Assembly (NCBI GenBank): GCA_963971305.1
Contig: OZ020303.1
Location: 17,915,184 to 17,979,183, forward strand
Direction of reading: 5' to 3'
DNA: 64,000 nt
Source: Arcuatula senhousia
Taxonomy: Eukaryota; Mollusca; Bivalvia; Mytilida; Mytilidae
Under the pieces are notes generated by a model. The model was not told the DNA's origin and did no database searches. It worked only from the letters and a program-made list of their open reading frames with translations. The translations under genes and the position numbers were made by a program. Below, in pieces: positions 2,173-47,406 of the stretch. Position 1 is the first letter of the stretch; the number at the start of each line of letters is the position of its first letter.

Positions 2173-2230
2173 TCAAGTTGGACCTTGTACTGCCTGTCTG
2201 TCGATTCCACTTGTGTCTGTTGTTTTCTAG

Positions 2231-4409: not shown

Positions 4410-4561
4410 CTCTTTTTCAGTCTTGCTTGGTGTGTATATCTCTCTAACCTTTATAGTTCTTGTTGGCCTTGATAATGCTATGGGCGCAGCCTGGTGTCAT
4501 TCGCAGCCTGTTTCCCAGTCCCACAACATGCATAATGCAATAAAAATGTAGTGGACTGACC

Positions 4562-5240: not shown

Positions 5241-7283
5241 GGGACTTGCGAACATGCTAAAGAAAACTAGCTATAATTTGTGTTGGGATGCCAACACACA
5301 AATCGCCCAAAATCGCCTTGGATACTATTTCTTCCCCTTCAGTACAATAAAATATGCATAGAAATCAAATTTCATTGAAATCGGACAAAGTTTACATTTT
5401 AAAGGGGGCGGGTGTAGTAAAATGGCCGCCATTTTGAAATCGTAAGTTGGATTTCAAATCCGGTCACAGATTTGTACTCAGCATACCTGCTTTATCCAGA
5501 TGACCAATTTTCAAGACGATCCAATGAAAAAAAAATTTCCGCCCACTTTTTCCGATGGCCGCCGTTTCAAAGAAACGGCGGACATTTTGAAAAAAACAAA
5601 AACAAATCAAACAACTTTACATGATGGTCAATCATTGTACAAAGTTTCATTGATGTCACTCAAAAATCCTAGTACTAGTTCTTCGGACAAGTTCAAGGGT
5701 AAGAAAAAGAATAATAATTAAAATTTACGTTTCCCGAAACGTGGGATGTCCCCTCCCGTTCTCATTTAATGTCTGTTCTTTTCAACAGAATTCCAACATT
5801 TTGCCATGAGTCGCCATCACCAATATACCCTGTATGCCAAGATTCATTGAAATACGACAATGTATACATTTTCTAGATATTCCCTGGCCATCTTGAAAAT
5901 GGCGGTCATTATGGAAATTCCAACAATTCACTGTGAGTCGCCATAACCCATATGCCCTGTATACCAAGTTTCGTTGTAATCGGACAATGTTTACATTTTT
6001 CGCCATTTTTGGCGACCATCTTGAAAATGGCGACCAATACGGAAATTCCGACAATGCGCCGTGAGTCGCCATAACCCATATACCCTGTATACCAAGTTTC
6101 GTTGAAATCGGACAATGTTAACATTTTTCGCCATTTTCGGCGGCCATATTGAAAATGGCGACCAATACGGAAATTCCGACAATGCGCCGTGAGTTGCCAT
6201 CACCCATATACCCTGTATACCAAGTTTCGTTAAAATCGGACAATGTTTACACTTTTCGGTGTTTTTCGGCCATTTTTCAAAAGGCCGCCACTTGCGAATT
6301 TTTTTTGCCAAAATGTTTTCAATTATGTTCCTGAACATGGATATTAAGTTTCGTTGAATTCCATCGAGTGGTTTCCGAGAAAATGAAGGTAATAGTTTTT
6401 CGGTTTTCGGCGGCCATCTTGGAAATGGTGGCCATTTTGAAATTATAAACCGCCAAACACCGTAGGACCTTGGGACCTATCACCCCTCCAAGTTTCATAT
6501 CGATCGGTCAAACCATTTCCGAGGAGATAGCTGGACAAGTTCGTGCATCAGGTTGACGGAAGAAAAAGAAAAAAGTATAATAAGAAAAATTAAAATTTAC
6601 GTTTCCCGAAACGTGGGATGTCCCCTCCCGTTCTCATTTAATATGAGTCGCCATCACCCATATACCCTGTGTACCAAGTTTCGTTAAAATTGGACAATTT
6701 TTACATTTTTCGTGATTTTCGGCGGCCATCTTGAAAATGGCAGCCATTGCGGAAATTCCGACAATGCGATGTGAGTCGCCATCACCCATATATCCTGTAT
6801 ACCAAGTTTCGTTGAAATCGAACAATGTTTACATTTTTCGCGATTTTCGGCGGCCATCTTGAAAATGGCGGCCATTACAGAAATTCCGACAATGCGCCGT
6901 CAGTCGCCATCACCCTTATACCCTGTATACCAAGTTTCGTTGAAATCGGACAATGTTTACATTTTTCGCGATTTTCGGCGGCCATCTTGAAAATGGCGGC
7001 CATTACAGAAATTCCGACAATGCGCCATCAGTCGCCATCACCGTTATACCCTGTATACCAAATTTCGTTGAAATCGGACAATGTTTACATTTTTCGCCAT
7101 TTTTGGCGGCCATCTTGGAAATGGCGGCCATTTTGAAATTATAAACCGCAAGAAACACCGTAGGACCTTGGGACCTATCACCCCTCCAAGTTTCATATTG
7201 ATCGGTCCACCCATTTCCGAGGAGATAGCCGGACAAGTTCGTGCATCAGGTTGACGGAAGAAAAAGAAAAAAGTATAATAATA

Positions 7284-7849
7284 ACTAGTGCTGACTGTGT
7301 TGGGGATGCCCAACACAAAAATATCTCCCAAACGTACGCAAACTGTCACTATTGCATAAATTTTGACATCGCATCCTAACTCGCCATCGTTTAAAACCCC
7401 TAAATACCAAATTTTGTCAAAATCGTAGCATTTTTACAATTTTCCCATTTTTTGGCCCGAAAAATCACAATTTCGTGAATAACTCAAAAACCGTAAATAT
7501 CGCTTCAAAATTTTTTTTCGTATTATTAAAGAGCTCCTTTTGCTCTATTAACCTGCAAAATTTCAGAACCCTGCGCACCTAGGTAACCGAGATATCGCAA
7601 TGTCCTATATTATGACCTTATATTGTTTCCATGGAAACGGCAGCCATTTTGAAAATTCTGATTTTTGCATTCCCACCTTTGAGACCCCCTCTACCACCAT
7701 ACAAAGTTTCATGAAGATCCATTCAGTAGTTTTTGAGAACCGGTCCGGACACGTTCATGTCCGGAAGAAAAAAAAAGAATAATAATAATAATAATAAGAA
7801 ACAGAGTAAAAACAATATATCTCCCAAACATAGTGTTTGGGAGATATAA
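7284..7849 (+). mobile_element. N4: class C element, complete and uninterrupted
   Basis: Starts ACTAG at 7284; head hairpin TGTTGGGGATGCCCAACA (within 7297-7318); tag ATATCTCCCAAACG. The body lacks the long tandem core and ends with CCGGACACGTTCATG, an AAT run and the lead AAACAGAGTAAAAACAAT. The tail hairpin 7817-7847 has arms ATATCTCCCAAACA and TGTTTGGGAGATAT. It is a good reference copy, with head and tail about 0.5 kb apart and nothing inserted. Confidence 0.85.
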
Positions 7850-9399
7850 CTAGGTATGATTGTGTTTGGATGCAAACACGAATGTCTCCCAAACAAACTC
7901 CCATTGCCACTATTCTCTTCAGCAAGTCAAAAAACCCTTAAATATCAAATTTCATGTAAATTGGAGCACTTTGAAATTTTGGCGGCCATCTTGGATTCAA
8001 AATGGCCGCCATTGTCAAATTTTAATTTTAGTTATAGAATATTTCTCGCAACATCATAATCTATCAGTATACCAATTTTCATCATAATCAGACGACTTTG
8101 AAATTTTGGCGGCCATCTTGGATTCAAAATGGCCACCATCGTCAAATTTTAATTTTAGTTAAAGAATATTACTTGCAACATCATAATCTATCAGTATGTT
8201 AATTTTCATCATAATCAGACCATTTTGAAATTTTGGAGGCCATCTTGGATTCAAAATGGCCGCCATCGTCAAATTTTAATTTTAGTTATAGAATATTACT
8301 CGCAACATCATAATCTATCAGTATATCAATTTTCATCATAATCAGACCACGTTGAAATTTTGGCGGCCATCTTGGATTCAAAATGGCCGCCATCGTCAAA
8401 TTTTAATTTTAGTTCTAGAATATTACTCGCAACATCATAATCTATCAGTATACCAATTTTCATCATAATCAGACCACTTTGAATTTTCGGACCAAAAAAT
8501 CACATTTTCGAAAATAACGCGAAAACCGTAAATTTCGCGTCAAAATTTTCTTCATATATATTGAAGAGCTTCATTTGTTCTATTCACCTACAAAATCTCA
8601 GCCTTCTACTCGCCTGGGTTACCGAGATATTGCAATGTCCTATATAATGACCTTTTCCCATTTACATGAAAACGGCAGCCATTTTGAAAATTTTAAAAGT
8701 CGTTTGCAAAACTTCAGGTCACCCTTAATATATTCCCAAAGTTTCATATTGATTCTACATTGCATCTTTGAGAAAACGCGCGGACAATTTGGAGCGGTAA
8801 GAAGAAAAGGAAGAAGAAGAATAATAACTAGTGCTGATTGTGTTGGGATGCCAACACAGAAGTCGCCCAAAATCGCCTTGGATATTATTCCATTCAAATC
8901 AGTGCATCAAAATAAGTCTAGAAATTAAATTTCGTCAAAATCGGACAAAGTTGACGTTTTTGGGGGGCGGGTGTGGTAAAACGGCCGCCATTTTAAAATG
9001 GCGTTGTTCGCGTCAATTTTTTTTTCGCCATGTTGCTTGGGATGGATCACTCTACCAGTGAACCAATTTTCATTAAAATCCATCCAGCCATCTCTGAGAT
9101 TTGAGAGAGGCCCAAAAATCTTAAACGGCGGCCATTTTGAAAATGGCGGCCATCTTGAAAATTTCAAAAGTGGATTGCACACCTCTGAGTGACCCTCCAC
9201 CCACCTCAGCAGGTTTTATCTTGATTGGTCAAAGCATTTTCAAAAAATGTGGCGGACAAGTTCATGATTAAGGTAAGGAAAAGAATAATAAAAAAAATAA
9301 CTAGTTCTAATTGTGATCGCAAGCGAGTCACATACATGTCCCCTCACGTACCCCTCTTTGACAATATTTCTGGCTTTTGTGGGAACCCTGTTTAAGCAA

Positions 9400-9640
9400 T
9401 GACGCCCTTATCATTCCATTGAAGCACCCTTTTTACAAGCATTGGTAGCGTACTTGTAAACTATTGTAGTGACTAGCGAGCATAACTACCGCTCTCGTCC
9501 TCTACAATGGAGCCACTCTTCAATGAAATGCTAAAAACGTTACGGAGAAGCTTTTGGTTGACATCCATATGAGATATTATTCTCCCTTAATCTCATATAG
9601 TCGAGAAGAGTCACACAGTCGCAACCAAAAGCTGTTGCAT
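9400..9640 (+). other. Stem-rich module in long class E elements (copies also near 21178-21420 and 22411-22655)
   Basis: Present in N7, N19 and N20 only. It contains an outer stem AGCTTTTGGTTG (9549-9560) / CAACCAAAAGCT (9622-9633) enclosing an inner stem CATATGAGAT (9566-9575) / ATCTCATATAG (9590-9600). Upstream are further inverted pairs (CATTGAAG..CTTCAATG and ATTGTAG..CTACAAT). Short class E copies (N10, N11, N18) lack the module. Function unknown; it could be a captured structured sequence. Confidence 0.6.
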
Positions 9641-10784
9641 GAGACCAGAAACAAAATTTGATGCTAAAAATGAACTCCCCATACCACAATTACCCTGTAT
9701 ATTAATTTTCATTAAAATCGGAGCAAGTCTAATTTTGGCGGGAAACGGCGGCCATTTTGAAAATGGCCGACGATATAAAAATTTTGGTGTCAAAAATCAA
9801 CTCGCCTTACCATTATTACCTTATATACCAATTTTCATCAAAATCGGAGTAACTTTAATTTTGGCGGGAAACGGCGGCCATTTTGAAAATGGCTGACGAA
9901 AAAAAAATTTTGGTGTAAAAAATCAACACGCCATACCACTATTACCTTGAATACCAATTTTCTTCAAAATCTGAGTAACTTTAATTTTGGCGGGAAACGG
10001 CGGCCATTTTGGAAATGGCCGACGATGAAAAATTTTTAATGTAAAAAATCAAATCGCCATACCACTATAACCTTATATACCAATTTTCATCAAAATCGGA
10101 GTAATTTTAAATTTTGGCGGGAAACGGCAGCCATTTTCAAAATGGCCGACGATAAAAAATTTTTGATGTCAAAAATCAAATCGGCATACCACTATTACCT
10201 TATATACCAATTTTCATCAAAATCGGAGTAACTTTAAATTTTGGCGGGAAAATGGCAGCCATCTTAGCCGCCATTTTGAAAATGGCCGCCAAAAAAATTT
10301 TCGATACCAAATATAAACTCGGCATACCACTATTACCTTGTAAACCAATTTTCATTAAGAAATAACAGAGTTGATAATTTTTACATTACTATTACAAAAT
10401 ACAAAAAACAAAGAAAGATAACTCAATCTTACAAAAAAATTAATTTTCGTTTTTTTGCAAAATTTTGAAAACGGTAAGTCCGATTTTCAAAATTTTTTTT
10501 TAAAATAAAAGGTATTAAATAGCCGCACTTAACCTATAAAGGAATTATTCCTACCCCTGCCGGATCAGAAATGCCAGGTAAAAATTCAACTTCGGTTTCG
10601 AGGAGCCATTTTGAGGCCCTTTTTTTACCTATAAGGGGTCGTTCGATTTCAGCGAAAAATACAAAAAGCACAATTTCCCATTCCATACTCTTGATATATG
10701 AAGTTTCAGCTTCCTACCTTAAAAGATGTCGAAAAAATGAGGTGGACAAGTTCACGGTCCAGAATACCGAGAAAAATAATAATA

Positions 10785-11297
10785 ACTAGCTATAATTTGT
10801 GTTGGGATGCCAACACACAAGTCGCCCAAAATCGCCTTGGATACCTTTTCTTCCCATTTAGTACACTAAAATATGTATAGAAATCAAATTTCATTGAAAT
10901 CGGACAAAGTTCACATTTTAAAGGGGGCGGGTGTAGTAAAATGGCCGCCATTTTGAAACCGGAAGTCGGATTTCAAATCTGGTCACAGATTTGAATTCAG
11001 CATACCCGCTTTACCCAGATGACAAATTTTCAAGACGATCCGATGAAAAAAAATTTTCCGCCCACTTTTTCCGACGGCCGCCATTTTGAAACGGCGGCCA
11101 TCTTGAAAATTTCAAAACATGATTACACGCCTATGAGTGACCCACTTTCCAATCCAACAAGTGTTATTCAATTTCCTTGAACCGTTTTCTTGTATTAGGG
11201 AGGACAGCTTTACGATAAAGAATCAGAAGAATAATAATAATAATAAGAAACGGTGCAAAAACAATAAGTCTCCCAAACTTTGTTTTGGGCGACTTAA
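10785..11297 (+). mobile_element. N8: class A element, complete, inside N7
   Basis: ACTAG 10785, head hairpin 10799-10816, tag AAGTCGCCC. The body is closely similar to N1's own part (shared GGGGGCGGGTGTAGTAAAATGG block). Tail hairpin 11266-11295: left arm AAGTCTCCCAAA, right arm TTTTGGGCGACTT, so one arm position (T for G) is mismatched. Uninterrupted. Confidence 0.85.
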
Positions 11298-11302
11298 TAA
11301 TA

Positions 11303-11842
11303 ACAAGTACTGACTGTGTTGGGGATGCCCAACACAAAAATGTCTCCCAAACGAACGCATTTTTGATACTGTATTCTAATTCGTCATCCATTGAAACCCA
11401 TAGAAATGAAATTTCATTGAAATCGAAGCACATTGACAAATTTTGCATTTTTGGGCCCGAAAAATCACATTTTCGTGAATAACTCGAAAACCGTAAATAT
11501 CGCTCCGAAATTTTTTTTCGTATTATTAATGAGCTCCTTTTGCTTTATTAACCTACAAAATTTCAGAACCCTGCGCACCTAGGTTACCGAGATATTGAAA
11601 TGTCCTATTTTATGAACTTTCGCTAATAACGCGGAAACGGCGGCCATTTTGAAAATTTTTAAAAGGTTGTGCACTCCTCCAGTAACCCATCTACCATTAT
11701 GCAATGTTTCGTTCAAATCCTTCGAGGCATTTCCGAGAAAAGTGCCGGACACGTTCATGGCGGAGAAAGAAGAAAAAGAATAATAATAATAAGAAACGGA
11801 GAAAAAACAATATGTCTCCAAACTTTCGTTTGGGAGACATAA
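11303..11842 (+). mobile_element. N9: class C element, complete, inside N7
   Basis: Head hairpin within 11315-11336, tag ATGTCTCCCAAACG, body like N4 and a CCGGACACGTTCATGG block. Tail hairpin 11812-11840 (ATGTCTCCAAAC..GTTTGGGAGACAT). It starts ACAAG where most other elements start ACTAG. Confidence 0.85.
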
Positions 11843-13024
11843 TAATAACTAGTTCTAATTGTGATCGCAAGCGAGTCACAAAAATGTCCCCTCACGTACC
11901 CCTCTTTGTCAATGTCTCTTGGCATTTGAGATAACTTAATTTATCCAATTTTCATCAAAATAGGAGTAAGTTTAATTTTGGCGGGAAACGGCGGCCATTT
12001 TTAAAATGGCCGACAATAAAAATATTTCGATGTCAAAAATCAACTCGCCATACATTTATTACCTTATATACCAATTTTCGTTAGAATCTGAGTAAATTTA
12101 ATTTTGGCGGGAAACGGCGGCCATTTTTAAAATGGCCGACGATAAAAAAAATTTTGATGTCAAAAATCAACTTGCCATACCACTATTACCTTATATACCA
12201 ATTTTCATTAAAATCGGAGTAATTTTAATTTTGGCGGGAAATGGCGGCCATTTTGAAAATGGCGGCCCAAAAAAAATTTCGATTCCAAAATTGAACTCAG
12301 CATACCACTATTACCTTGTAAACCAATTTTCATCAAAATCAGAATAACTTTAATTTTGGCGGGAAACGGCGGCCATTTTGAAAATGGCCGACAATAAAAA
12401 AATTTTGATGTCAAAAATCAACTCGCCATACCACTATTACCTTATATACCAATTTTCATTAAAATCAGAGTAATTTTAATTTTGGCGGGAAATGGCGGCC
12501 ATTTTTAAAATGGCCGCCCCAAAAAAAATTTCGATTCCAAAATTGAACTCGGCATACCACTATTACCTTGTAAACCAATTTTCATTAAGAAATAACAAAG
12601 TTGAGAATTGTTTTCATTAATATCACAAAATATATGGCACAAAGAAAGATAACTCAATCTTACAAAAAAAATAATTTTCGATTTTTTGCAAAATTTTGAA
12701 AACGGTAAGTCCGATTTTCAATTTTTTTTTTAAATGAAAGGTATTGTATATCCGCACTTAACCTATAAGGGAATTTTTTCTACCCCTGCCGGATCAGAAA
12801 TGCCAGGAAAAATTCAACTTCGGTTTCGAGGAGCCATTTTGAGGCCCTTTTTTTACCTGTATGGGGTCGTTCGATTTCGGCGAAAAATACAAAAAGCACA
12901 ATCTCCCATTCCATACTCTTGATTTATGAATTTTCAGCTTCCTACCTTAAAAGATGTCGAAAAAATGAGGTGGACAAGTTCACGATCCAGAATACCGAGA
13001 AAAATAATAATAATAATAATAATA

Positions 13025-14608
13025 ACTAGTTCTAATTGTGATCGCAAGCGAGTCACAAAAATGTCCCCTCACGTACCCCTCTTTGTCAATGTCTCTTTGC
13101 ATTTGAGATAACTTAATTTATCCAATTTTCATCAAAATAGGAGTAAGTTTAATTTTGGTGGGAAACGGCGGCCATTTTTAAAATGGACGACAATAAAAAT
13201 ATTTCGATGTCAAAAATCAACTCACCATACATATATTACCTTATATACCAATTTTCGTTTAAATCTGAGTAAATTTAATTTTGGCGGGAAACGGCGGCCA
13301 TTTTGAAAATGGCCGACGATAAAAAAATTTTGATGTCAAAAATCAACTTTCCATACCACTATTACCTTATATACCAATTTTCATTAAAATCCGAGTAATT
13401 TTAATTTTGGCGGGAAATGGCGGCCATTTTGAAAATGGCGGCCCCCCAAAAAATTTCGATTCCCAAATTGAACTCGGCATACCACTATTACCTTGTAAAC
13501 CAATTTTCATCAAAATCAGAATAACTTTAATTTTAGCGGGAAACGGCGGCCATTTTGAAAATGGCCGAAGATAAAAAAATTTGATTTCTAGACTTATTTT
13601 GATACACAATAAAAAAATGTTGATGTCAAAAATCATCTCGCCATACCACTATTACCTTATATACCAGTTTTCATAAAAATCAGAGTATCTTTAATTTTGG
13701 CGGGAAACGGCGACCATTTTGAAAATGGCCGACGATGAAAAATTTTTAATGTAAAAAATCACCTCTCCATACCACTATTACCTTATATACCAATTTTCAT
13801 CAAAATCTGAGTAACTATAATTGTGGCGGGAAACTGCAGCCATTTTGAAAATGGCCGAAGATGAAAAATCTTTAATGTCAAAAATCAACTCGCCATACCA
13901 CTATTACCTTATATACCAATTTTCATCAAAATCTGAGTATTTTTAATTTTGGCGGGAAACGGCGGCCATTTTGAAAATGGCCGACGATAAAAAAAAGTTG
14001 TTGTCGAAAATCAACTCAGCATACCACTATTACCTTCTATACCAATTTTCATCAAAATCAGAGCAACTTGAATTTTTGGCGGGAAAATGGCGGCCATTTT
14101 AGCCGCCATTTTGAAAATGGCCGCCAAAGATTTTTTAAATACCAAAAATGAACTCGGCATACCACTATTATCTAGTACATCAATTTTCATTAAGATATTA
14201 CAAAGTTGAGATTTTTTACATTATTATCACAAAATATGCTGAACAAAGAAAGATAACTCAATTTGACAAAAAAATTAAATTTCGTTTTTTTGCAAAATTT
14301 TGAAAACCGTAAGTCCGATTTTCAAAATTTTTTTTTTAAATGAAAGGTATTGAAAGTCTACACCTACCCTATAAAGGAATTTTTCCTACCCCTGCCGGAT
14401 CAGAAATGCCAGGTAAAATTCAACTTCGGTTTCGAGGAGCCATTTTGAGGCCCTTTTTTGACCTATAAGGGGTCGTTCGATTTCGACGAAAAATACAAAA
14501 AGCACAATCTCCCATTCCATACTCTTGATTTATGAAGTTTCAGCTTCCTACCTTAAAAGATGTCGAAAAAATGAGGTGGACAAGTTCACGGTCCAGAATA
14601 CCGAGAAA

Positions 14609-14670
<62 letters not shown>

Positions 14671-14721
14671 GAAACCGAGCAAAAACAATATGTCCCCGAC
14701 ACTTCGTGTTCGGGGACATAA
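13025..14721 (+). mobile_element. N11: class E (short form) element, complete, inside N10
   Basis: Head hairpin 13038-13058. The longest uninterrupted class E core in the cluster, with roughly nine ~125 bp units. The AAT microsatellite (about 14610-14670) is the longest in this half and is free of insertions. Tail lead AAACCGAGCAAAAACAAT and hairpin 14690-14719. Confidence 0.85.
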
Positions 14722-14733
14722 TAATAATAATAA

Positions 14734-15338
14734 TTAAAAATAACTGTGTTGGGATGCCAACACAAAAGTCGCCCAAAATCGCCTTTAGATAGTATTCCAT
14801 TCAATTCTGTGCATCAAAATATGCCTAGAAATCAAATTTCATTGAAATCCGACCACTTTGAAAATTTGCCGATTTTTGGCCGCCATTTTGAAACGGCAGC
14901 CATTTTGAAAATTTCCAAACTTCTTGCACAACTTCAGATGGTGCTTAATCACTCTGCAAAGTTTCATTAATCTCATTCAAAGTATGTCAGACTATACCCT
15001 CGGACAAAATTGATGATTTTTCATGGGGGGCGGGTGTTGTTACATGGCCGCCATTTTGGAACGAAAGCTCGGACAAAAATTCTAATTCCAGATTTGAGAT
15101 AAGGACACCCCATTTACCCTTAGAAATCATTTTGAAGACGATCCGATAAATATTTCTCGATGTTACTATTTTTAGAACGGCAGCCATTTTGAAATGGCGG
15201 CCATTTTGACACATTTGTCCGACCACTGCAACCCCGCTATAGATGATCTATATGTGTGCCAAATATCAAGCCCCTGTCTCGATCACTGTTACGGCAATTC
15301 TCCGGAAAAGTAACTGTTAAGAAGAATAATAATAATAA
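14734..15338 (+). mobile_element. N12: class A head and body without its own tail (tandem copy of N13)
   Basis: Head hairpin 14746-14763 and tag AAGTCGCCC. About 600 bp nearly identical to the following N13 body, joined through an AAT run. No tail hairpin follows before the N13 head. It is the only unmatched head in the cluster, best explained by head-to-tail duplication between AAT runs. Confidence 0.75.
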
Positions 15339-15928
15339 TTAAAATTAATCGTGTTGGGATGCCAACACACAAGTCGCCCAAAATCGCCTTTTGATAGTAT
15401 TCCATTCAATTCTGTGCATCAAAATATGCCTAGAAATCAAATTTCGTTGAAATCCGACCACTTTGAAAATTTGCTGATTTTTGGCCGCCATTTTGAAACG
15501 GCGGCCATTTTGAAAATTTCCAAACCACTTGCACAACTTCAGATGGTGCTTAATCACTCTGCAAAGTTTCATTAATCTCATTTAAAGCATGTCAGACTAT
15601 ACCTTCGGACAAAATTGATGATTTTTCATGGGGGGCGGGTGTTGTTACATGGCCGCCATTTTGAAACGAAAGCTCGGACAAAAATTTTGATTCCAGATTT
15701 GAGATTAGGACATCCCATTTACCCTTAGATATCATTTTAAAGACGATCCGATAAATATTTCTTGATGTTACTATTTTTAGAACGGCAGCCATTTTGAAAT
15801 GGCGGCCATTTTGACACATTTGTCCGACCACTGCAACCCCGCTTTAGATGATCTATATGTGTGCCAAATATCAAGCCCCTATCTCAATCACTGCTACGGC
15901 AATCCTCCGGAAAAGTAACTGTTAAGAA

Positions 15929-15967
<39 letters not shown>

Positions 15968-16018
15968 GAAACGGGGTAAAAACAATAAGTCGCCAAAACT
16001 TAGTTTTGGGCGACTTAA
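15339..16018 (+). mobile_element. N13: class A element, complete, inside N10
   Basis: Head hairpin 15351-15368, tag AAGTCGCCC, body with GGGGGGCGGGTGTTGTTACATG, tail lead AAACGGGGTAAAAACAAT and hairpin 15987-16016 (AAGTCGCCAAAA / TTTTGGGCGACTT). Its head is preceded by TTAAAATTAATC where most class A copies have ACTAG. Confidence 0.8.
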
Positions 16019-16083
16019 TAATAATAATAATAATAAGAAACCGAGCAAAAACAATATGTCCCCGACACTTCGTGTTCGGGGAC

Positions 16084-16135
<52 letters not shown>

Positions 16136-16296
16136 GAAACCGAGCAAAAACAATATGTCCCCGACACTTCGTGTTCGGGGACATAATAATAAGAAACGGT
16201 GCAAAAACAATAAGTCTCCCAAACTTTGTTTTGGGCGACTTAATAAGAAACCGTACAAAAGCAATATGTCTCCCAAAACTTTGTTTGGGAGACATA
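15959..16296 (+). repeat. Five consecutive tail hairpins closing N13, N10, N7, N6 and N5
   Basis: Hairpins at 15987-16016 (A), 16056-16085 (E), 16155-16184 (E), 16212-16241 (A) and 16266-16295 (D-type ATGTCTCCC), separated only by AAT runs and leads. With the N12 duplicate set aside, the class order is the reverse of the still-open heads, as nested insertion predicts. Long asparagine- or isoleucine-rich frames here are translations of AAT repeats, not genes. Confidence 0.85.
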
Positions 16297-17045
16297 ACTA
16301 GGTATAATTGTGTTGGGATGCCAACACAGAAGTCGCCCAAAATCGCCATGGATTGTTTTTCTTTCCATTCAGTTCAATAAAATATGCATAGAAATCCAAT
16401 TTCATTGAAATCGGACAAAGTTTCAATTTAAACCGGACGGGAATGTAGTAAAAATGGCCGCCATTTTAAAACCGGAAGTCAGATCAAAAGTTCAATTGCA
16501 CCATTGAACTCAGCATACCTGATTTTCCCAGATAAACTATTTTCATGACAATCAGACAAATTTTAATTTTTTTTGTCTATTTTTAGTAACAGGCCCCCAT
16601 TTTGAAACGGCGGCCATTTTGAACATTCTGAAAACTTCCTGCAAAACTTCATATAAAGATTAATCACTGTGCAAAGTTTCATTATCTTTGGTCAAAGCAT
16701 CTCAAACTAGTTATCCGGACAAAATTACCAGGGGGCGGGGGTATAAAAATGGCCGCCATTTGAGAACGGTAAGTCCAATCTGAAATCTGATTTTATATTT
16801 ATAACCCAGGATACCCCATTTACCCTAACAACCCATTTTCAAAATGTTCTGATAAGTATTAGTCGTTGTTGCTATTTTTAGAACAGCCGCCATTTTGAAA
16901 CGGCGGCCATTTTGAATTTTTAAATATTACGTTGCATAACTCCTTTTGGTGTTCTATCATCCTGCAAAGTTTCATAGAACTCCTACAAAGCACTAACGAG
17001 CAATCCTTTCGGAAAAGTTCATGGATAAGGAAAATAATAATAATA

Positions 17046-18136
17046 ACTAGAATTGCCATTGCCAGCAATAGCAGATGTCGACCGTTGCCTTATCTTTTAC
17101 GACATATTTGACACTGTCGGCAGCCACTTTAATGATTTTTTTAATATTTGACTCCATATTCCCACTCGCCATCCTTCAAACACCTAAAATATCAAGTTTC
17201 GTTAAAATCTGAGAATTTTCAATACTTACGGAAGTGGCGGCCATTTTGATTTGTTTGGAATTTTTGAACTCGCCATCAATTGAAACTCCTAAATATAAAG
17301 TTTCGTTAAAATCTGAGAATGTTCACTTTTAACGGAAAATGGCGGCCATTTTGAATTTTTCGACATTTCTGACCTCGCGTATCAACTCGTCAACCTTCAT
17401 ATTCCTTAAATATAAAGTTTCTTTAAAATTGGAGAATGTTCCATTTTCACGGGAAATGGCGGCCATTTTGAATTTTTTGAAATTTTTGAATCGGTCATCC
17501 TTCAAAACTCTAAAAAATAAAATTTCATTAAAATTTTGAAAAAAAAAATTTTTTTGGAAGTGGCGGCCATTTTGAATTTTTTGAACTTTTTGAACTCGCC
17601 ATCCTATGAAACACCTAAATATAAATTTTCGTGGAAATCGGAAAATTTTTCATTTTTACAGGAAGTGGCGGCCATTTTGAATTTTTCGACATTTCTTACT
17701 CCACGTATGAACTCGCCATACTTCATATACCTTAAATATAAAGTTTCGTTAAAATCGGAGAATGTACAATTTTTACGGGAAATGGCGGCCATTTTGAATT
17801 TTTCGACATTTTTTTCGTCACGCCTCAACACGCCATACTGTAATATGGCTTTAAATAAATTTTTGTTCAAATCAGAAAACGCGACTTTTTTTACGTAAAA
17901 TGGCGGCCATCTTGAAAATGGCAGCCATCTTGGTTCCGAAAAGTTCTACTGCAACAGATATCATGATCACGTATCATCATACCAAGTTTGGAACCGCAAT
18001 ATAAAACGGTTCTTTAGTTATGACGCGGACAAAAATTGGCGACAATAAGAATAAGAATAAGAATAATAATAATGAAAAAAAATAAACGCGACAATAACAA
18101 TATGTCTACCGAATAACTGCGTTTCGGTCGACATAA
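17046..18136 (+). mobile_element. N15: class F element, complete, only copy in the window
   Basis: ACTAG 17046, head region with ATTGCCATTGCCAGCAAT and tag ATGTCGACCG. Core of about six ~120 bp units (AAGTTTCGTTAAAATC..GGCGGCCATTTTGAATTTTT). Tail lead AAACGCGACAATAACAAT and hairpin 18102-18134 with arms ATGTCTACCGAA / TTCGGTCGACAT. Only class F head and only class F tail, adjacent as expected. Confidence 0.85.
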
Positions 18137-21082
18137 TAATTAAAATTTACGTTTCCCGAAACGTGGGATGTCCCCTCCCGTTCTCATATAATGTCTGTCC
18201 TCTTCAACCGATTTCCAACAATGCGCCGTGAGTCGCCATCACCCATATACCCTGTGTACCAAGTTTCGTTAAAACTGGACAATGTTTACATTTTTCACAG
18301 TTTTCGGCGGCCATCTTGAAAATGGCAGCCATTACGGAAATTCCGACAATGCGCTGTGAGTCGCCATCACCCATATATCCTGTATACCAAGTTTCGTTGA
18401 AATCGGACAATATTTACATTTTTCGCGATTTACGGCGGCCATCTTGAAAATGGCGGCCATTATAGAAATTTCAACAATGTGCCGTCAGTCGCCATCACCC
18501 ATATACCCTGTATACCAAGTTTCATTGAAATCGGACAATGTTAACATTTTTCGCCATTTTCGGCGGCCATCTTGAAAATGGCGACCAATACAGAAATTCC
18601 GACAATGCACTGTGAATCGCCATCACCCATATACCCTCTATACCAAGTTTCGTTGAAATCGGACAATGTTTACATTTTTCGCTCTTTTTCGGCCATTTTT
18701 CAAAATGGCCGCCACTCGCGAAATTTTTTTTTGCCCAAAAAGTTTCCAATTATGTTTCTGAACATGTATACCAAGTTTCGTTGAATTTCATCATGTGGTT
18801 TCCAAGAAAAATAAGGTAATAGTTTTTCGGTTTTTGGCGGCCATCTTGGAAATGGCGGCCATTTTGAAATTATAAATCGCAAAAAACACTGAAGGACCTT
18901 GGGACCTATCACCCCTCCAAGTTTCAAATCGATCGGTCCACCTATGTCCGAGGAGATAGTCGGACAAGTTCGTGCATCAGGTTGACGGAAGAAAAAGAAA
19001 AAAGTATAATAATAATAATTAAAATTTACGTTTTCCGAAACGTGGGATGTCCCCTCCCGTTCTCATATAATGTCTGTCCTCTTCAACAGATTTCCGACAA
19101 TGCGCCGTGAGTCGCCATCACCCATATACCCTGTATACCGAGTTTCGTTAAAATTGGACAATGTTAACATTTTTCGCCAATTTCAGCGGCCATCTTGAAT
19201 ATGGCAGCCATTACGGAAATTCCGACAATGCGCTGTGAGTCGCCATCACCCATATATCCTGTATACCAAGTTTCGTTGAAATCGGACAATGTTTACATTT
19301 TTCGCGACTTTCGGCGGCCATCTTGAAAATGGCGGCCATTACAGAAATTCCGACAATGCGCCGTCAGTCGCCATCACCCTTATACCCTGTATACCAAGTT
19401 TCGTTGAAATCGGACAATGTTTACATTTTTCGCGATTTTCGGCGGCCATCTTGAAAATGGCGACCAATACGGAAATTCCGACAATGTGCCGTGAATCGCT
19501 ATCACCCATATACCCTCTATACCAAGTTTCGTTGAAATCGGACAATGTTTACATTTTTCGCTCTTTTTCGGCCATTTTTCAAAATGGCCGCCACTCGCGA
19601 AATTTTTTTTTGCCCAAAAAGTTTCCAATTATGTTTCTGAACATGTATACCAAGTTTCGTTGAATTTCATCATGTGGTTTCCAAGAAAAATAAGGTAATA
19701 GTTTTTCGGTTTTAGGCGGCCATCTTGGAAATGGCGGCCATTTTGAAATTATAAATCGCAAAAAACACTGTAGGACCTTGGTACCTATCACCCCTCCAAG
19801 TTTCAAATCGATCGGTCCACCTATGTCCGAGGAGATAGTCGGACAAGTTCGTGCATCAGGTTGACGGAAGAAAAAGAAAAAAGTATAATAATAATAATAA
19901 TAAAAATAATAATAACTAGTTCTAATTGTGATCGCAAGCGAGTCACAAAAATGTCCCCTCACGTACCCCTCTTTGTCAATGTCTCTTGGCATTTGAGATA
20001 ACTTAATTTATCCAATTTTCATCAACAAAGGAGTAAGTTTAATTTTGGCGGGAAGCGGCGGCCATTTTTAAAATGGCCGACAATAAAAATATTTCGATGT
20101 CAAAAATCAACTCACCATACATATATTACCTTATATACCAATTTTCGTTAAAATCTGAGTAAATTTAATTTTGGCGGGAAACGGCGGCCATTTTGAAAAT
20201 GGCCGACGATAAAAAAAATTTTGATGTCAAAAATCAACTTGCCATACCACTATTACCTCATATACCAATTTTCATTAAAATCGGGGTAATTTTAATTTTG
20301 GCGGGAAATGGCGGCCATTTTGAAAATGACGGCCCCCCAAAAAATTTCGATTCCAAATTTGAATTCGGCATACCACTATTACATTGTAAACCAATTTTCA
20401 TCAAATTCAGAATAACTTTAATTTTGGCGGGAAACGGCGGCCATTTTGAAAATGGCCGACGATACAAAAATTTTGATGTCAAAAATCAACTCGCCATACC
20501 ACAATTACCTTATATACCAATTTTCACTAAAATCGGAGTAATTTTAATTTTGGCGGGAAATGGCGGCCATTTTTAAAATGGCCGCCCAAAAAAAAATTTC
20601 GATTCCAAAATTGAACTCGGCATACCACTATTACCTTGTAAACCAATTTTCATTAAGAAATAACAAAGTTGAGAATTTTTTTCATTAATATCACAAAATA
20701 TATGGTACAAAGAAAGATAACTCAATCTTACAAAAAAAATAATTTTCGATTTTTTGCAAAATTTTGAAAACGGTAAGTCCGATTTTGAAAATTTTTTTTT
20801 TAAATGAAAGGTATTGTATATCCGCACTTAACCTATAAGGGAATTTTTCCTACCCCTGCCGGATCAGAAATGCCAGGAAAAATTCAACTTCGGTTTCGAG
20901 GAGCCATTTTGAGGCCCTTTTTTTACCTATAAGGGGTCGTTCGATTTCGGCGAAAAATACAAAAAGCACAATCTCCCATTCCATACTCTTGATTTATGAA
21001 TTTTCAGCTTCCTACCTTAAAAGATGTCGAAAAAATGAGGTGGACAAGTTCACGATCCAGAATACCGAGAAAAATAATAATA

Positions 21083-23534
21083 ACTAGTTCTAATTGTGAT
21101 CGCAAGCGAGTCACATACATGTCCCCTCACGTACCCCTCTTTGACAATATTTCTGGCTTTTGTGGGAACCCTGTTTAAGCAATGACGCCCTTATCAAACC
21201 ATTGAAGCACCCTTTTTACAAGCATTGGTAGCGTACTTGTAAACTATTGTAGTGACTAGCGAGCATAACTACCGCTCTCGTCCTCTACAATGGAGCCACT
21301 CTTCAATGAAATGCTAAAAACGTTACGGAGAAGCTTTTGGTTGACATCCATATGAGATATTATTCTCCCTTAATCTCATATAGTCGAGAAGAGTCACACA
21401 GTCGCATCCAAAAGCTGTTGCATCGGACCATAAACAAAATTTGATGCTAAAAATGAACTCCCCATACCACAATTACCCTGTATATTAATTTTCATTAAAA
21501 TCGGAGCAAGTTTAATTTTGGCGGGAAACGGCGGCCATTTTGAAAATGGTCGACGATAAATAAATTTCAATGTCAAAAATCAAATCCCCATACCACTATT
21601 ACCTTATATACCATTTTTCATCAAAATTGGTGTAATTTTAATTTTGGCGGGAAACTGCGGCCATTTTGAAAATGGCCGACGATCAAAAAAATTCGATGTC
21701 AAAAATCAACTCGCCATACCACTATTACCTTATATACCAATTTTCATCAAAATCGGAGCAAGTTTAAGTTTTGGCGGGAAAATGGCAGCCATTTTAGCCG
21801 CCATTTTGAAAATGGCCGTCAAAAAAATTTTTCGACTCCAAAAATGAACTCGGCATACCACTATTACCTTGTAAACCAATTTTCATTAAGAAATAACAAA
21901 GTTGAGATTTTTTTTCATTACTATTACAAAATATATTGAACAAAGAAAGATAACTCAATCTTACAAAAAAAATAATTTTCGATTTTTTGCAAAATTTTGA
22001 AAACGGTAAGTCCGATTTTCAAATTTTTTTTTTTAAATGAAAGGTATTGAAAGTCTACACTTACCATATAAAGGAATTTGTCCTACCCCTGCCGGATCAG
22101 AAATGCCAGGAAAAATTCAACTTCGGTTTCGAGGAGCCATTTTGAGGCCCTTTTTTGACCTATAAGGGGTTGTTCGATTTCGACGAAAAATACAAAAAGC
22201 ATAATCTCCCATTCCATACTCTTGATATATGAAGATTCAGCTTCCTACCTTAAAAGATGTCAAAAAAATGAGGTGGACAAGTTCACGGTCCAGAATACCG
22301 AGAAAAATAATAATAACTAGTTCTAATTGTGATCGCAAGCGAGTCACATACATGTCCCCTCACGTACCCATCTTTGACAATATTTCTGGCTTTTGTTGGA
22401 ACCCTGTTTAAGCAATGACACCCTTATCATTCCATTGAAGCACCCTTTTTACAAGCATTGGTAGCGTACTTGTAAACTATTGTGGTGACTAGCGAGCATA
22501 ACTACCGCTCTCGTCCTCCACAATGGAGCCACTCTTCAATGAAATGCTAAGAACGTTACGGAGAAGCTTTTGGTTGACATCCATATAAGATATTATTCTC
22601 CCTTAATCTCATATGGTCGAGAAGAGTCACACAGTCACATCCAAAAGCTGTTGCATCAGACCAGAAACAAAATTTGATGCTAAAAATGAAATCCCCATAC
22701 CACAATTACCCTGTATATTAATTTTCATTAAAATCGGAGCAAGTCTAATTTTGGCGGGAAATGGCAGCCTTTTTGAAAATGGCCGACAATAAAAAAATTT
22801 CGATGTCAAAAATCAATTCGCCATACTTTCATTACCTTATATACCAATTTTCATCAAATTCTGAGTAACTTTAATTTTGGCGGGAAACAGCGGCCATTTT
22901 GAAAATGGCCGACGATGAAAAATTTTTAATGTCAAAAATCAATTCGCCATACTTGCATTACATTATATACCAATTTTCATCAAATTCTGAGTAACTTTAA
23001 TTTTGGCGGGAAATTGGCGGCCATTTAGCCGCCATTTTGAAAATGGCCGCCAAAAAAATTTTTTAATTCCAAAAATGAACTCGGCATACCACTATTACCT
23101 TGTAACCCAATTTTTATGAAGAAATAACAAAGTTGACAATTTTAACATTACTATTACAATATACAAGATACAAAGAAAGATAACTCAATCTTATAAAAAA
23201 ATAATTTTCGATTTTTTGCAAAATTTTGAAAACGGTAAGTCCGATTTTCAAATTTTTTTTTTTAAATGAAAGGTATTAAATATCCGCACTTAACTTATAA
23301 AGGAATTTTTCCTACCCCTGCCGGATCAGAAATGCCAGGAAAAATTCAACTTCGGTTTCGAGGAGCCATTTTGAGGCCCTATTTTGACCTATAAGGGGTC
23401 ATTCGATTTCGACGAAAAATACAAAAAGCACAATTTCCCATTCCATACTCTTGATTTATGAAGTTTCAGCTTCCTACCTTAAAAGATGTCGAAAAAATGA
23501 GGTGGACAAGTTCACGATCCAGAATACCGAGAAA

Positions 23535-23581
<47 letters not shown>

Positions 23582-23628
23582 GAAACCGAGCAAAAACAAT
23601 ATGTCCCCGACACTTCGTGTTCGGGGAC

Positions 23629-23662
<34 letters not shown>

Positions 23663-23713
23663 GAAACCGAGCAAAAACAATATGTCCCCGACACTTCGTG
23701 TTCGGGGACATAA
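21083..23713 (+). mobile_element. N19: class E (long form) element, inside N18
   Basis: Head hairpin beginning about 21094, own body 21083-22315 with the stem-rich module (21178-21420). One side of the outer stem is changed (CATCCAAAAGCT), weakening that pair. Assigned tail hairpin 23682-23711. Confidence 0.8.
22316..23632 (+). mobile_element. N20: class E (long form) element, complete, deepest bracket (level 9)
   Basis: Head hairpin beginning about 22328, stem-rich module 22411-22655, short core, AAT microsatellite (about 23535-23580) and tail hairpin 23601-23630. Under the nesting model it is the youngest of its chain. Confidence 0.85.
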
Positions 23714-23968
23714 TAATAATAAGAAACCGAGCAAAAACAATATGTCCCCGACACTTCGTGTTCGGGGACATAATAATAATAAGAAAAATAAGAAACGGAG
23801 TAAAAACAATATGTCCCCGACGACACTTCGTGGTCGGGGACATAATAAGAAAAATAAGAAACGGAGTAAAAACAATATGTCCCCGACGACACTTCGTGGT
23901 CGGGGACATAATAAGAAGAAACGGGGTAAAAACAATAAGTCGCCCAAACTTTGTTTTGGGCGACTTAA
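23580..23968 (+). repeat. Six consecutive tail hairpins: E, E, E, B, B, A
   Basis: Hairpins at 23601-23630, 23682-23711, 23742-23771 (E), 23811-23843, 23877-23909 (B) and 23937-23966 (A). The still-open heads to the left are, from the inside outward, N20 E, N19 E, N18 E, N17 B, N16 B, N14 A, an exact match in class and number. Confidence 0.88.
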
Positions 23969-23974
23969 TAATAA

Positions 23975-25726
23975 TTAAAATTTACGTTTCCCGAAACGTG
24001 GGATGTCCCCTCCCGTTCTCATTTAATGTCTGTCCTCTTCAACAGAATTCCGACAATGTGCCGTGAGTCGCAATCACCCATATACCCTGTATACCAAGTG
24101 TCGTTGAAATTGGACAATGTTTATATTTTTTGCCATTTTCGGCCGCCATCTTGAAAATGACGGCCATTACGGAAATTCTGACAATGCGCCGTGAGTTGCC
24201 ATCACCCATATACCCTGTATACCAAGTTTCGTTGAAATCATACAATGTTTACATTTTTTGCCATTTTCGGCGGCCATCTTGAAAATGGCGGCCATTACGG
24301 AAATTCTGACAATGCGCTGTGAGTCGCCATCACCCATATACCCTGTATACCAAGTTTCGTTGAAATCCGACAATGTTGAGATTTTTATGGATTTTCGGCG
24401 GCCATCTTGAAAATGGCGGCCATTACAGAAATTCCGACAATGCGCCGTGAGTCGCCATCACCCATATATCCTATATACCAAGTTTCGTTAAAATCAGACA
24501 ATGTTTACATTTTTCGCTCTTTTTCGGCCATTTTTCAAAATGGCCGCCACTTGCGAAATTTTGTTTTGCCAAACAAGTTTCCAATTATAATCCTGAACAT
24601 GTATACCAAGTTTCGTTGAATTTCATCCAGTGGTTTCTGAGAAATAAAAGGTAAAAGTTTTTCGGTTTTTGGCAGCCATCTTGGAAATGGCGGCCATCTT
24701 GAAATATAAAACCCAAAAAAACACCGTAGGACCTTGGGACCTATCATCCCTCCAAGTTTCAGATCGATCGATCCACCCATTTCCGAGGAGTAGGCCGGAC
24801 AAGTTCGTGCATCAGGTTGACGGAAGAAAAAGAAAAAATAAAGAATAACTAGGTATAATTGTGTTGGGATGCCAACACAGAAGTCGCCCAAAATCGCCAT
24901 GGATTGTTTTTCTTTCCATTCAGTTCAATAAAATATGCATAGAAATCAAATTTCATTGAAATCGGACAAAGTTTCAATTTAAACCGGACGGGAATGTAGT
25001 AAAAATGGCCGCCATTTTAAAACCGGAAGTCAGATCAAAAGTTCAATTGCACCATTGAACTCAGCATACCTGATTTTCCCAGATAAACTATTTTCATGAC
25101 AATCAGACAAATTTTAATTTTTTTTGTCTATTTTTAGTAACAGGCCCCCATTTTGAAACGGCGGCCATTTTGAACATTCTGAAAACTTCCTGCAAAACTT
25201 CATATAAAGATTAATCACTGTGCAAAGTTTCATTATCTTTGGTCAAAGCATCTCAAACTAGTTATCCGGACAAAATTACCAGGGGGCGGGGGTATAAAAA
25301 TGGCCGCCATTTGAGAACGGTAAGTCCAATCTGAAATCTGATTTTATATTTATAACCCAGGATACCCCATTTACCCTAACAACCCATTTTCAAAATGTTC
25401 TGATAAGTATTAGTCGTTGTTGCTATTTTTAGAACAGCCGCCATTTTGAAACGGCGGCCATTTTGAATTTTTAAATATTACGTTGCATAACTCCTTTTGG
25501 TGTTCTATCATCCTGCAAAGTTTCATAGAACTCCTACAAAGCACTAACGAGCAATCCTTTCGGAAAAGTTCATGGATAAGGAAAATAATAATAATAATAA
25601 TTAGAAGAAACGGGGTAAAAACAATAAGTCGCCCAAACTTTGTTTTGGGCGACTTAATAATAAGAAAAATAAGAAACGGAGTAAAAACAATATGTCCCCG
25701 ACGACACTTCGTGGTCGGGGACATAA
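23975..25726 (+). mobile_element. N21: class B element, inside N3
   Basis: Head hairpin 23984-23999, own body 23975-24847 with the ~128 bp core, assigned tail hairpin 25692-25724 (class B). Contains N22. Confidence 0.8.
24848..25657 (+). mobile_element. N22: class A element, complete, inside N21
   Basis: ACTAG 24848, head hairpin starting about 24860, tail lead AAACGGGGTAAAAACAAT and hairpin 25626-25655. Its body differs from N14 at very few positions over about 740 bp (for example AAATCAAATTTC against AAATCCAATTTC). Confidence 0.85.
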
Positions 25727-25930
25727 TAAGAAACGGAGTAAAAACAATATGTCCCCGACGACACTTCGTGGTCGGGGACATAATAATAATAATAATAAGA
25801 AGAAAAATAAGAAACGGAGTAAAAACAATATGTCCCCGACGACACTTCGTGGTCGGGGACATAATAAGAAGAATAATAAGAAACGGGGTAAAAACAATAA
25901 GTCGCCAAAACTTTGTTTTGGGCGACTTAA
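25600..25930 (+). repeat. Closing tails A, B, B, B, A of the cluster
   Basis: Hairpins 25626-25655 (A, closes N22), 25692-25724 (B, N21), 25749-25781 (B, N3), 25830-25862 (B, N2) and 25899-25928 (A, N1). Unrelated DNA (TTATACCGCAC) begins directly afterwards. Confidence 0.85.
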
Positions 25931-26614: not shown

Positions 26615-27818
26615 ATGGCAAGCCGTTTTTACATTTATTCCTCTTTATAGATATCTCATAAACTTTATAAGATATCTCATATACTTTATAAGATATCTCA
26701 TAAAGTTTATAAGATATCTTATAAACTTTATAAGATATCTTATAAACTTTATGAGATATCTTATAAAAAATAATTTATAAGATATCTTAAATACTTTATA
26801 AGATATCTTATAAACTTTATGAGATATCTTATAAATTTTATAAGATATCTTATTTACTATATAAGATATCTTTAAAAGAAAATGAGATATCTACTAAAAA
26901 CAATGTTTATAAGATATCTGATAAAGTTTATAAGATATCTCATAATGTTTATATGATATCTTATAAAGTATATGAGATATCTTATAAATTATTTTTTATA
27001 AGATATCTTATAAAGTTTATAAGATATCTTATAAAGTTTATCAGATATCTTATAAACTTTATGAGATATCTTATAAAGTATATGAGATATCTTATAAATT
27101 TTATGAGATATCTTTAAAGAGGCCTTATAAAAAATATAAGATATCTCATATACTTTATAAGATATCTTATTAAATATATAAGATATCTCATATAAATGGA
27201 AGTTTATAAGATATCTTATAAAACATATGAGATATCTTATGAAACATATCAGATATCTTATAAAACATATACGATATCTCATAAAGTTTATCAGATATTT
27301 TATAAAAATAATGAGATATCTTATATAAAATAATTTATAAGATATCTTATAAAAGTTATAAGATATCTTATAAAGTTTATAAGATATCTCGTAAACTTTA
27401 TGAGATATCTTATAAAAAATAACTTATAAGATATCTCATAAAATATATAAGATATCTAATAGACTTTATGAGACATCTTATAAACTTTATAAGATATCTT
27501 ATTAGTTTTATAAGATATCTAATAAGTTTTATAAGATATCTTATAAATTATTTTTATGAGATATCTAATAATCTTTATAAGATATCTTATAAACTTTATG
27601 AGATATCTTATATGTTTTATAAGATATCTTGTTTGTTTTATAAGATATCTTATATGTTTTATAAGATATCTCATATGTTTTATAAGATATCTTATAAACT
27701 ACCATTTATATGAGATATCTTATATATTTAATAAGATATCTTATAAAGTATACGAGATATCTTATATATTTTATGAGATATCTTTAAAGAGGAATAAATA
27801 TAAATATGGCGTGCCATA
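26615..27818. mobile_element. Inverted-end element filled with a GATATC palindrome satellite
   Basis: Left end TATGGCAAGCCGT..TTTATTCCTCTTTA and the reverse complement of the right end (TATGGCACGCCAT..TTTATTCCTCTTTA) match over about 45 bp. Flanks are identical AAGAAC at 26609-26614 and 27819-27824, a likely 6 bp target duplication. The interior (about 26650-27785) is a ~21 bp tandem repeat of palindromes such as TATAAGATATCTTATA. No coding capacity; non-autonomous. Superfamily not identified. Confidence 0.75.

Positions 27819-37819: not shown

Positions 37820-47406
<9,587 letters not shown>

Follow-up and report, generated by a model that had tools for sequence, protein, structure and literature searches.

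A nest of short Helentron-type transposons in Arcuatula senhousia, very probably built by serial insertion into self-carried AAT tracts

How can a block of about 20.7 kb come to consist of hairpin ends that open and close like nested brackets? The question is raised by a 64-kb stretch of the 1.04 Gb genome of the mytilid bivalve Arcuatula senhousia (C1:17915184-17979183, here called the window), in which the order of these ends was read from the assembly. A preliminary description made from the sequence alone had treated one kind of end, the head, as an opening and the other, the tail, as a closing bracket, and had proposed that the elements inserted serially, each into the same part of an older one. 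The block is very probably a nest of young rolling-circle transposons of the Helentron type, lying on the minus strand and built by serial insertion into AAT tracts that the copies themselves carry. The copies in the window are short, non-autonomous and HINE-like.

Heads and tails were called with a purpose-built annotator. It gave 22 heads, which fall into six classes (A 7, E 6, B 5, C 2, D 1, G 1), for the array at 5267-25928, together with 21 tails (A 6, E 6, B 5, C/D 3, G 1), and all of them lie on a single strand. Beyond 5-26 kb, the annotator detected no classified head or tail in the window; three weak unclassified tail-like matches were present there (26863, and 19724 and 31372 on the minus strand, counted from the far end), and a looser tail pattern gave one extra match outside the array at 38308. 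A BLAST comparison of the array with the rest of the window gave no linking match, Rfam and tRNA scans found nothing, and a search for the tail pattern in viral contigs returned 0 matches.

When every tail was assigned to the latest open head irrespective of type and the head at 14734 was omitted, all 21 tails met a head of their own class. Permutation of the tails (100,000 times) gave a mean of 5.09 and a maximum of 14 class matches, and a first-in-first-out order gave 7 of 21. With head 14734 included, type-blind closing matched 16 of 21 tails and type-aware closing 21 of 21, one of these by skipping 14734, which stays open. The maximum depth is nine, reached at 22317 irrespective of 14734. 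Heads of the array are preceded by another head 14 times and by a tail 7 times, and therefore siblings are present besides deeper levels. Most of the preliminary description is thus borne out: the purpose-built annotator gave the same counts of heads and tails, the bracket-matching test against shuffled orders that it had proposed separates the observed order from the permuted ones, each tail closes the latest open head of its class once 14734 is set aside, the first head pairs with the last tail, and nine levels are reached. The run of heads A, B, B, E, E, E followed by tails E, E, E, B, B, A is also present, and a closed G element (17047-18134) within the same A had been left out of it. The tailless element 12 had been regarded as an apparent tandem duplicate of element 13; the alignment of the two (heads at 14734 and 15339) shows 26 differences in 605 bases (4.3%), making a recent tandem duplication unlikely, and a separate insertion that lost its own tail later would fit better.

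The pairing of classes is reflected in the anatomy of the ends. A tail consists of a 21-base lead (AAGAAACSGNGNAAAAACAAT or a variant) and a class-specific hairpin. A head is made up of a terminus (CTAG, CAAG or TTAAAA), a hairpin and a motif particular to its class. Read on the minus strand, the element begins with the tail hairpin and finishes with the head hairpin and terminus. Hairpin z values were -7.2 (A), -6.3 (E) and -5.5 (B) for tails and -3.1, -1.7 and -1.7 for heads, the last two being weak. Plus-strand termini of 167 heads were CTAG in 96, TTAA in 48 and CAAG in 23. Over 81 matched pairs, the head motif just inside the 3' hairpin was the reverse complement of the right arm of the tail, with identity at all 12 bases in classes C (11 pairs), D (2) and H (2), a mean of 11.96 in A, about 9.9 in B and E, and 10 in the one G pair. 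Class H was encountered only outside the window and obeys the head/tail rule in its two pairs, and the ATATC and ATGTC subtypes of class C agree at both ends in 11/11 pairs. Judged from sequence, the ends are thus laid out as in Helitron2 elements, with an asymmetric terminal inverted repeat, whose presence at both ends of each element would account for the class-specific pairing. Un-nested copies elsewhere, in which a B head leads to a B tail (13 pairs) or a D head to a C/D-type tail (2 pairs), confirm pairings that the window merely implies. Body lengths are fixed (836-860 bases in 33/44 B bodies, 425-455 in 34/44 A bodies), and classes B, D and E carry satellite-like repeats with units of 126-128 bases. 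The central repeats of several class bodies (e.g. window 5540-5600) are rich in GGCGGCCATTTTGAAAATGGC-like sequence, which we take to resemble a binding site of the regulator YY1.

The insertion site could be read from the junctions. A recognisable terminus was found in 167 of 168 heads; of these, 167 were preceded by A and 165 by AA. The third base past the tail hairpin was T in 131 of 142 tails, mostly as AAT. With about eight exceptions, which resemble array edges, heads are situated in AAT/AAG repeats or straight after another tail. Some 20 bases inward of its 5' hairpin, each copy has a tract rich in AAT, the insertion site being between body and tail; for 93 of 146 heads with a downstream feature, the next feature is another head where their own tail would be expected. 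The preceding A or AA is compatible with A^TT or T^T, as the first T can be attributed to the element (T^T, as in Helentrons) or to the target (A^T, as in Helitrons). The proposal of serial insertion into the same part of an older element is thereby strongly supported, the site being the (AAT)n tract, and nesting of this typed kind is seen again at 37 other loci.

On the transposon strand the tract reads (ATT)n and would offer an A^TT (or T^T) target. New copies would enter it in one orientation, as the target past the 3' end would be TT, and the need for TT at this place would explain why copies within an (ATT)n strand are co-oriented. An insertion would leave the older copy in two parts, the body together with its 3' end on one side and the 5' hairpin by itself on the other, and, as it would bring a new AAT tract for the next one, nests would grow inward; repetition would yield typed, balanced nests. 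We infer the order of the insertions in time, and also that the tract is favoured as a target, beyond being merely tolerated. More tentatively, the (AAT)n by the 5' end might act as a self-carried landing pad, each insertion adding a pad and keeping the ends of the copy paired; it is possible, if rather less than even, that nests grow by themselves in this way, concentrate insertions in transposon DNA and may move as typed packages, and that an autonomous Helentron can ride inside a short element.

The same grammar was found elsewhere in the genome. Similarity searches with one class A and one class B copy yielded 38 loci (from the best 40 of 1979 and the best 40 of 648 candidates), and further stretches were examined on C8, C9, C14, C1666, C3 and C4. 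After the window loci (L001, L009, L033, L034), loci within longer stretches (L012, L019, L031) and separate Rep/helicase cores had been dropped, the final set comprised 37 loci, in which 167 heads (including two false calls on the opposite strand) and 136 tails were counted. In this set, 80 of 87 closings joined ends of the same class (10,000 permutations: mean 20.2, maximum 36), as did 31 of the 35 closings that span other elements (permutation mean 8.2, maximum 18). Opposite-strand calls occurred in 2 of the 37 loci and concerned three heads with two mismatches each, two of which share a sequence within a Rep/helicase frame. Some unmatched or open ends may be due to undetected or deleted ends. 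At L061:4190-4260 on C4, a C tail is cut within its hairpin and fused to C body sequence, likely a recombination product within a nest.

A locus on C2, chosen for its consecutive E matches and additional to the 37, has the order (A)A(E(E(E(E(E(E)E(E)E)E)E)E, followed by a head scored as A that is of D type and has a C/D tail, and then )E(A(A(A(A)A)A)A)A)A. With this scoring, 11 of 13 tails match; the head in question (9702) was kept as A, although the terminus before it and the tail after it are of D type. An exact search for the 40-base B tail gave 489 places across the genome, 245 forward and 244 reverse, against 0 for the reversed control. Within the first 100 of these places, neighbouring tails lay on the same strand in 31/31 pairs less than 5 kb apart and in 8/9 pairs 5-40 kb apart.

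The preliminary description had considered the group solely non-autonomous, which had to be revised, as a Helentron bounded by class G ends and a Rep/helicase element bounded by class A ends were both found in nests. The C14 locus reads (B (E)E (A (G [Rep/helicase] )G )A; here a G head near 4402 and a G tail that ends at 24200 enclose an element of 19.8 kb, itself inside an A element. Its frame of 1747 residues matches PF14214 (Helitron_like_N, E 7.4e-35), PF05970 (PIF1 helicase, E 2.3e-21) and, as a C-terminal endonuclease at residues 1535-1725, PF03372 (Exo_endo_phos, E 6.2e-9); the only match of a second frame (707 residues) was LED_rpt, below the cut-off. Additional frames (RPA, OTU protease) have been reported in some Helentrons. 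With its predicted Rep, helicase and endonuclease domains, the 19.8 kb class G element is classed as an autonomous Helentron. The tail of element 15 in the window is identical to the C14 Helentron tail (54/54 bases), and so the G element of the window is a short relative with the same ends; its 3'-terminal part is 86.5% identical over 178 columns. On C1666 (L058), only G heads and tails occur, and once more the end of a Rep/helicase frame of this type comes after a G head. On C4, a Rep/helicase frame is enclosed by an A head and an A tail about 14 kb apart, all but 2.4 kb of this span having been covered; in the part of the frame that was covered, which stops short of its C-terminal part, no endonuclease was seen. 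On C3, the last of the heads seen ahead of a Rep/helicase frame is of E type, the sequence covered excluding about 2 kb between this head and the frame as well as the tail. Membership among Helentrons and HINEs is thus shown for class G, supported for A and, from the head only, suggested for E; as G and A ends bracket Rep/helicase elements, the short elements are regarded as HINE-like. PF14214 was found at no fewer than 150 places (best 150 of 345 candidates), all but two of the 150 listed lacking an internal stop, and in 0 of 14 control genomes. More than 100 long open Rep/helicase frames, of up to 3181 residues, were observed in the genome. The Helentron population is apparently rich and recent.

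Features of more than one family were met in the assignment. The HINE layout is present (subterminal inverted repeats, AAT microsatellite, central repeats and 3' palindrome), and so is the mark of Helitron2, an asymmetric inverted repeat in the 5' hairpin and upstream of the 3' hairpin. Helitron2 proper requires that there is no endonuclease; one is present in the class G element, and the group was therefore filed with the Helentrons. A canonical Helitron (Helitron1) has a 5' TC, no 5' hairpin and a 3' CTRR; here the 5' end is a strong hairpin reading TTA(A/T)GTC, and the CTAG that follows the 3' hairpin in the 96 heads is a Helitron1-like trait. Read on the plus strand, the array is not known to fit any family, whereas the minus strand fits the Helitron2/Helentron group.

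All elements of the array are on the minus strand, strand being given as the canonical 5'-3' orientation of the transposon. The outermost, element 1 (class A, 5267..25928, depth 1), has its 3' terminus CTAG at 5267, its 5' hairpin, i.e. the tail, at 25899-25928 and a head motif with a single changed base (AAATCGCCC instead of AAGTCGCCC). Below it follow element 2 (class B, 5718..25862, depth 2, tail hairpin 25830-25862) and element 3 (class B, 6590..25781, depth 3, tail hairpin 25749-25781). At depth 4 lie element 4 (class C, ATATC subtype, 7285..7847, un-nested, tail hairpin 7817-7847), element 5 (class D, 7850..16295, tail hairpin 16266-16295), element 14 (class A, 16298..23966, tail hairpin 23937-23966) and element 21 (class B, 23975..25724, tail hairpin 25692-25724). 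Element 6 (class A, 8828..16241, tail hairpin 16212-16241) is at depth 5 and element 7 (class E, 9301..16184, tail hairpin 16155-16184) at depth 6, followed at depth 7 by the un-nested elements 8 (class A, 10786..11295, tail hairpin 11266-11295) and 9 (class C, ATGTC subtype, 11304..11840, tail hairpin 11812-11840) and by element 10 (class E, 11849..16085, tail hairpin 16056-16085). Element 11 (class E, 13026..14719, tail hairpin 14690-14719) is un-nested at depth 8, and its (AAT)20.7 tract between body and tail (14609..14670) is an unoccupied site of the kind used by nested copies. Element 12 (14734..15338) comprises a class A head and body and is the sole exception in having no tail of its own, and element 13 (class A, TTAA terminus, 15339..16016, tail hairpin 15987-16016) is un-nested. 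Element 14 contains six more elements: the un-nested element 15 (class G, 17047..18134, depth 5, tail hairpin 18102-18134), element 16 (class B, 18140..23909, depth 5, tail hairpin 23877-23909), element 17 (class B, 19019..23843, depth 6, tail hairpin 23811-23843), element 18 (class E, 19916..23771, depth 7, tail hairpin 23742-23771), element 19 (class E, 21084..23711, depth 8, tail hairpin 23682-23711) and the innermost, element 20 (class E, 22317..23630, depth 9, tail hairpin 23601-23630), with an unoccupied (AAT)15.7 tract at 23535..23581. Element 22 (class A, 24849..25655, tail hairpin 25626-25655) is un-nested at depth 5.

Tails are near-identical genome-wide, with edits per base of 0.2% in B, 0.5% in A, 1.6% in E and 5.2% in C (E and C include subtypes), and 28 of 34 B tails are identical. 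The copies are therefore probably young, and their bodies would differ mainly through different sources. Elements 14 and 22, at different junctions, show 1 difference in 737 bases, and 14 contains six elements and 22 none; because the two are so alike, the six would be very recent arrivals unless gene conversion has occurred. Element 18, one of the six, has copies elsewhere that are 99% identical (best 40 of 1642 candidates); the genome-wide search for nearest copies covered this one inner element (19916).

Several observations speak against serial insertion or weaken the case for it. The other loci were chosen by similarity to A, B and E copies or to Rep/helicase and are a non-random sample, and in 7 of their 87 closings the classes are mismatched. 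On C2, one E head and one A tail are left open besides the D-type pair, and on C14 no tail for the outer B element was found in the stretch examined. The arms are alike across classes (A and C differ at 2/12 bases, B and E at 1/12), and motif identity therefore separates classes weakly and is supporting evidence only. A search for an empty site with joined flanks gave 0 of 42 matches spanning the joint. The ages lend no support either: by terminal branch lengths of bodies, the inner copy was younger in 29 of 58 pairs (Wilcoxon p 0.34) and in 16 of 31 pairs of the same class (Wilcoxon p 0.24), in trees from a sparse sample in which the terminal branch is the distance to the nearest sampled copy. 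Tail edits, based on few mutations, showed no trend with nesting, with means of 0.52 for elements with nothing inside, 0.13 with one and 0.25 with two or more (n=50, 15 and 16). The expectation of the preliminary description that inner copies are younger than those containing them was thus not shown, which is not counted as contrary evidence, the copies being apparently too young for dating.

The absence of a measurable age difference would be accounted for if nests were copied whole, rolling-circle replication running from the outer 5' hairpin through the contents to the element's own 3' end, so that balanced blocks spread as units and fewer insertions were needed; it also agrees with this view that 21 of the 22 window elements keep head and tail of their class. 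Elements 14 and 22 are nearly the same, yet filled in one case and empty in the other, and no repeated block of outer plus inner elements was noticed among the loci read, although no systematic search was made, so that copying of whole nests is considered unlikely. Alternatively, unequal exchange or replication slippage between AAT tracts could have duplicated elements in tandem without serial transposition. The AAT tracts and the 54-57 base tail repeats are recombinable in principle, and the tailless element 12 and the truncated C tail on C4 resemble products of recombination. Duplication alone would not, however, yield a typed, balanced order from classes with different bodies, and the strand-specific nature of the junctions also disfavours it; 15 of 15 window bodies measured have their nearest sampled relative at another locus, the near-identical elements 14 and 22 sit at different junctions, elements 12 and 13 have diverged, and the same grammar appears with different class orders in 37 loci, all of which renders this explanation very unlikely.

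Runs of several tails, such as four A tails in L008 and window 23580-23966, could also stem from composites in which several 5' ends share one 3' end, as in Fusarium Helitrons; self-insertion followed by mobilisation from the outer 5' end has been proposed in the accessible part of PMC5148889, and a related path for maize in that of PMC3288121. Composites would leave headless tails, whereas all 21 window tails have a head and 80 of 87 closings match at the other loci, and such an origin is very improbable indeed. That wrongly joined repeats mimic a nest is conceivable in a highly repetitive region with long AAT tracts. Mis-joins would rather break than create typed nesting at 37 further loci, and the junctions retain the same termini and target bases, so that an assembly artefact appears improbable in the extreme.

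The surroundings of the nest contain further repeats and coding traces. Just past it, at window 26643-27789, lies an array of about 1.1 kb with a 21-base AT-rich palindromic unit. Tandem arrays were also seen at 43293-44627 (52-base unit, 25.7 copies, 96% matches) and 51177-54809 (64-base unit, 57 copies, GC-richer than its surroundings). On the minus strand at 1540-4496, open frames carry an endonuclease/exonuclease/phosphatase domain and a weak PHD finger below the cut-off, perhaps a long interspersed nuclear element (LINE) adjoining the nest. Downstream, at 31582-36126, two exons of an XK-related protein gene (PF09815) are located.

If serial insertion is true, nests would record the order of transposition by containment alone, without dating. 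The transposon family would then carry its own target and insertions would hit other copies instead of genes, a testable route to self-limited spread. Nests would also allow natural tests of the way in which a Helentron tells its own ends from those of nested competitors.

A paper from 2010 reportedly describes a lepidopteran Helitron-like family that disrupts (GAAA)n. According to the accessible part of PMC4067079, Helentrons and HINEs, including DINE-1, share with the present elements a Rep/helicase protein with a C-terminal endonuclease and inverted repeats near both ends, as well as the palindrome near the 3' end, the T-rich target and, in non-autonomous copies, central tandem repeats and a microsatellite. 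Nests are not described in that part, whereas here 93 of 146 heads have another copy at the microsatellite, and the 3' hairpin is followed by CTAG in 96 of 167. The Pacific oyster element Cg_HINE has the same order of modules (5' repeat, microsatellite, central satellite-like array, subterminal repeat, 3' palindrome) and the T-rich preference, but its microsatellites are mostly four-base and eroded, and the word 'nested' has 0 occurrences in the main text as available (PMC7492417). The same source, as far as accessible, reports whole Helitrons repeated in tandem with truncated inner copies, from which the balanced nesting seen here differs.

Helitron2, in the accessible part of PMC3627910, has hairpins at both ends, an asymmetric inverted repeat with one copy within the 5' hairpin and the other immediately upstream of the 3' hairpin, and compensatory changes between related families, all as found here; the asymmetric repeat was suggested there to set the end point of copying. 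Unlike the class G element, Helitron2 is without an endonuclease (accessible part of PMC4067079), and recursive nesting is not described in that part of PMC3627910. A Helitron within a Helitron is known from self-inserted elements of Fusarium and Metarhizium (PMC5148889) and from nested helitrons of maize (PMC3288121). In the accessible parts of these two papers, two insertions into a 5' end may account for one Metarhizium case, and multiple tandem insertions in bat, Drosophila, rice and maize are cited by PMC5148889. Those cases have one or few levels and are often unbalanced with extra ends, whereas up to nine balanced levels occur here at one site. The preliminary description knew of no account of such depth, and this agrees with the open-access literature in its accessible parts, subscription papers being outside the scope, where no account of deep typed nesting at a self-carried microsatellite was found. 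As far as these sources extend, nested and self-inserted Helitrons, tandem insertions and microsatellite-bearing HINEs in oyster and flies were already known, and the deep typed nesting is the new part.

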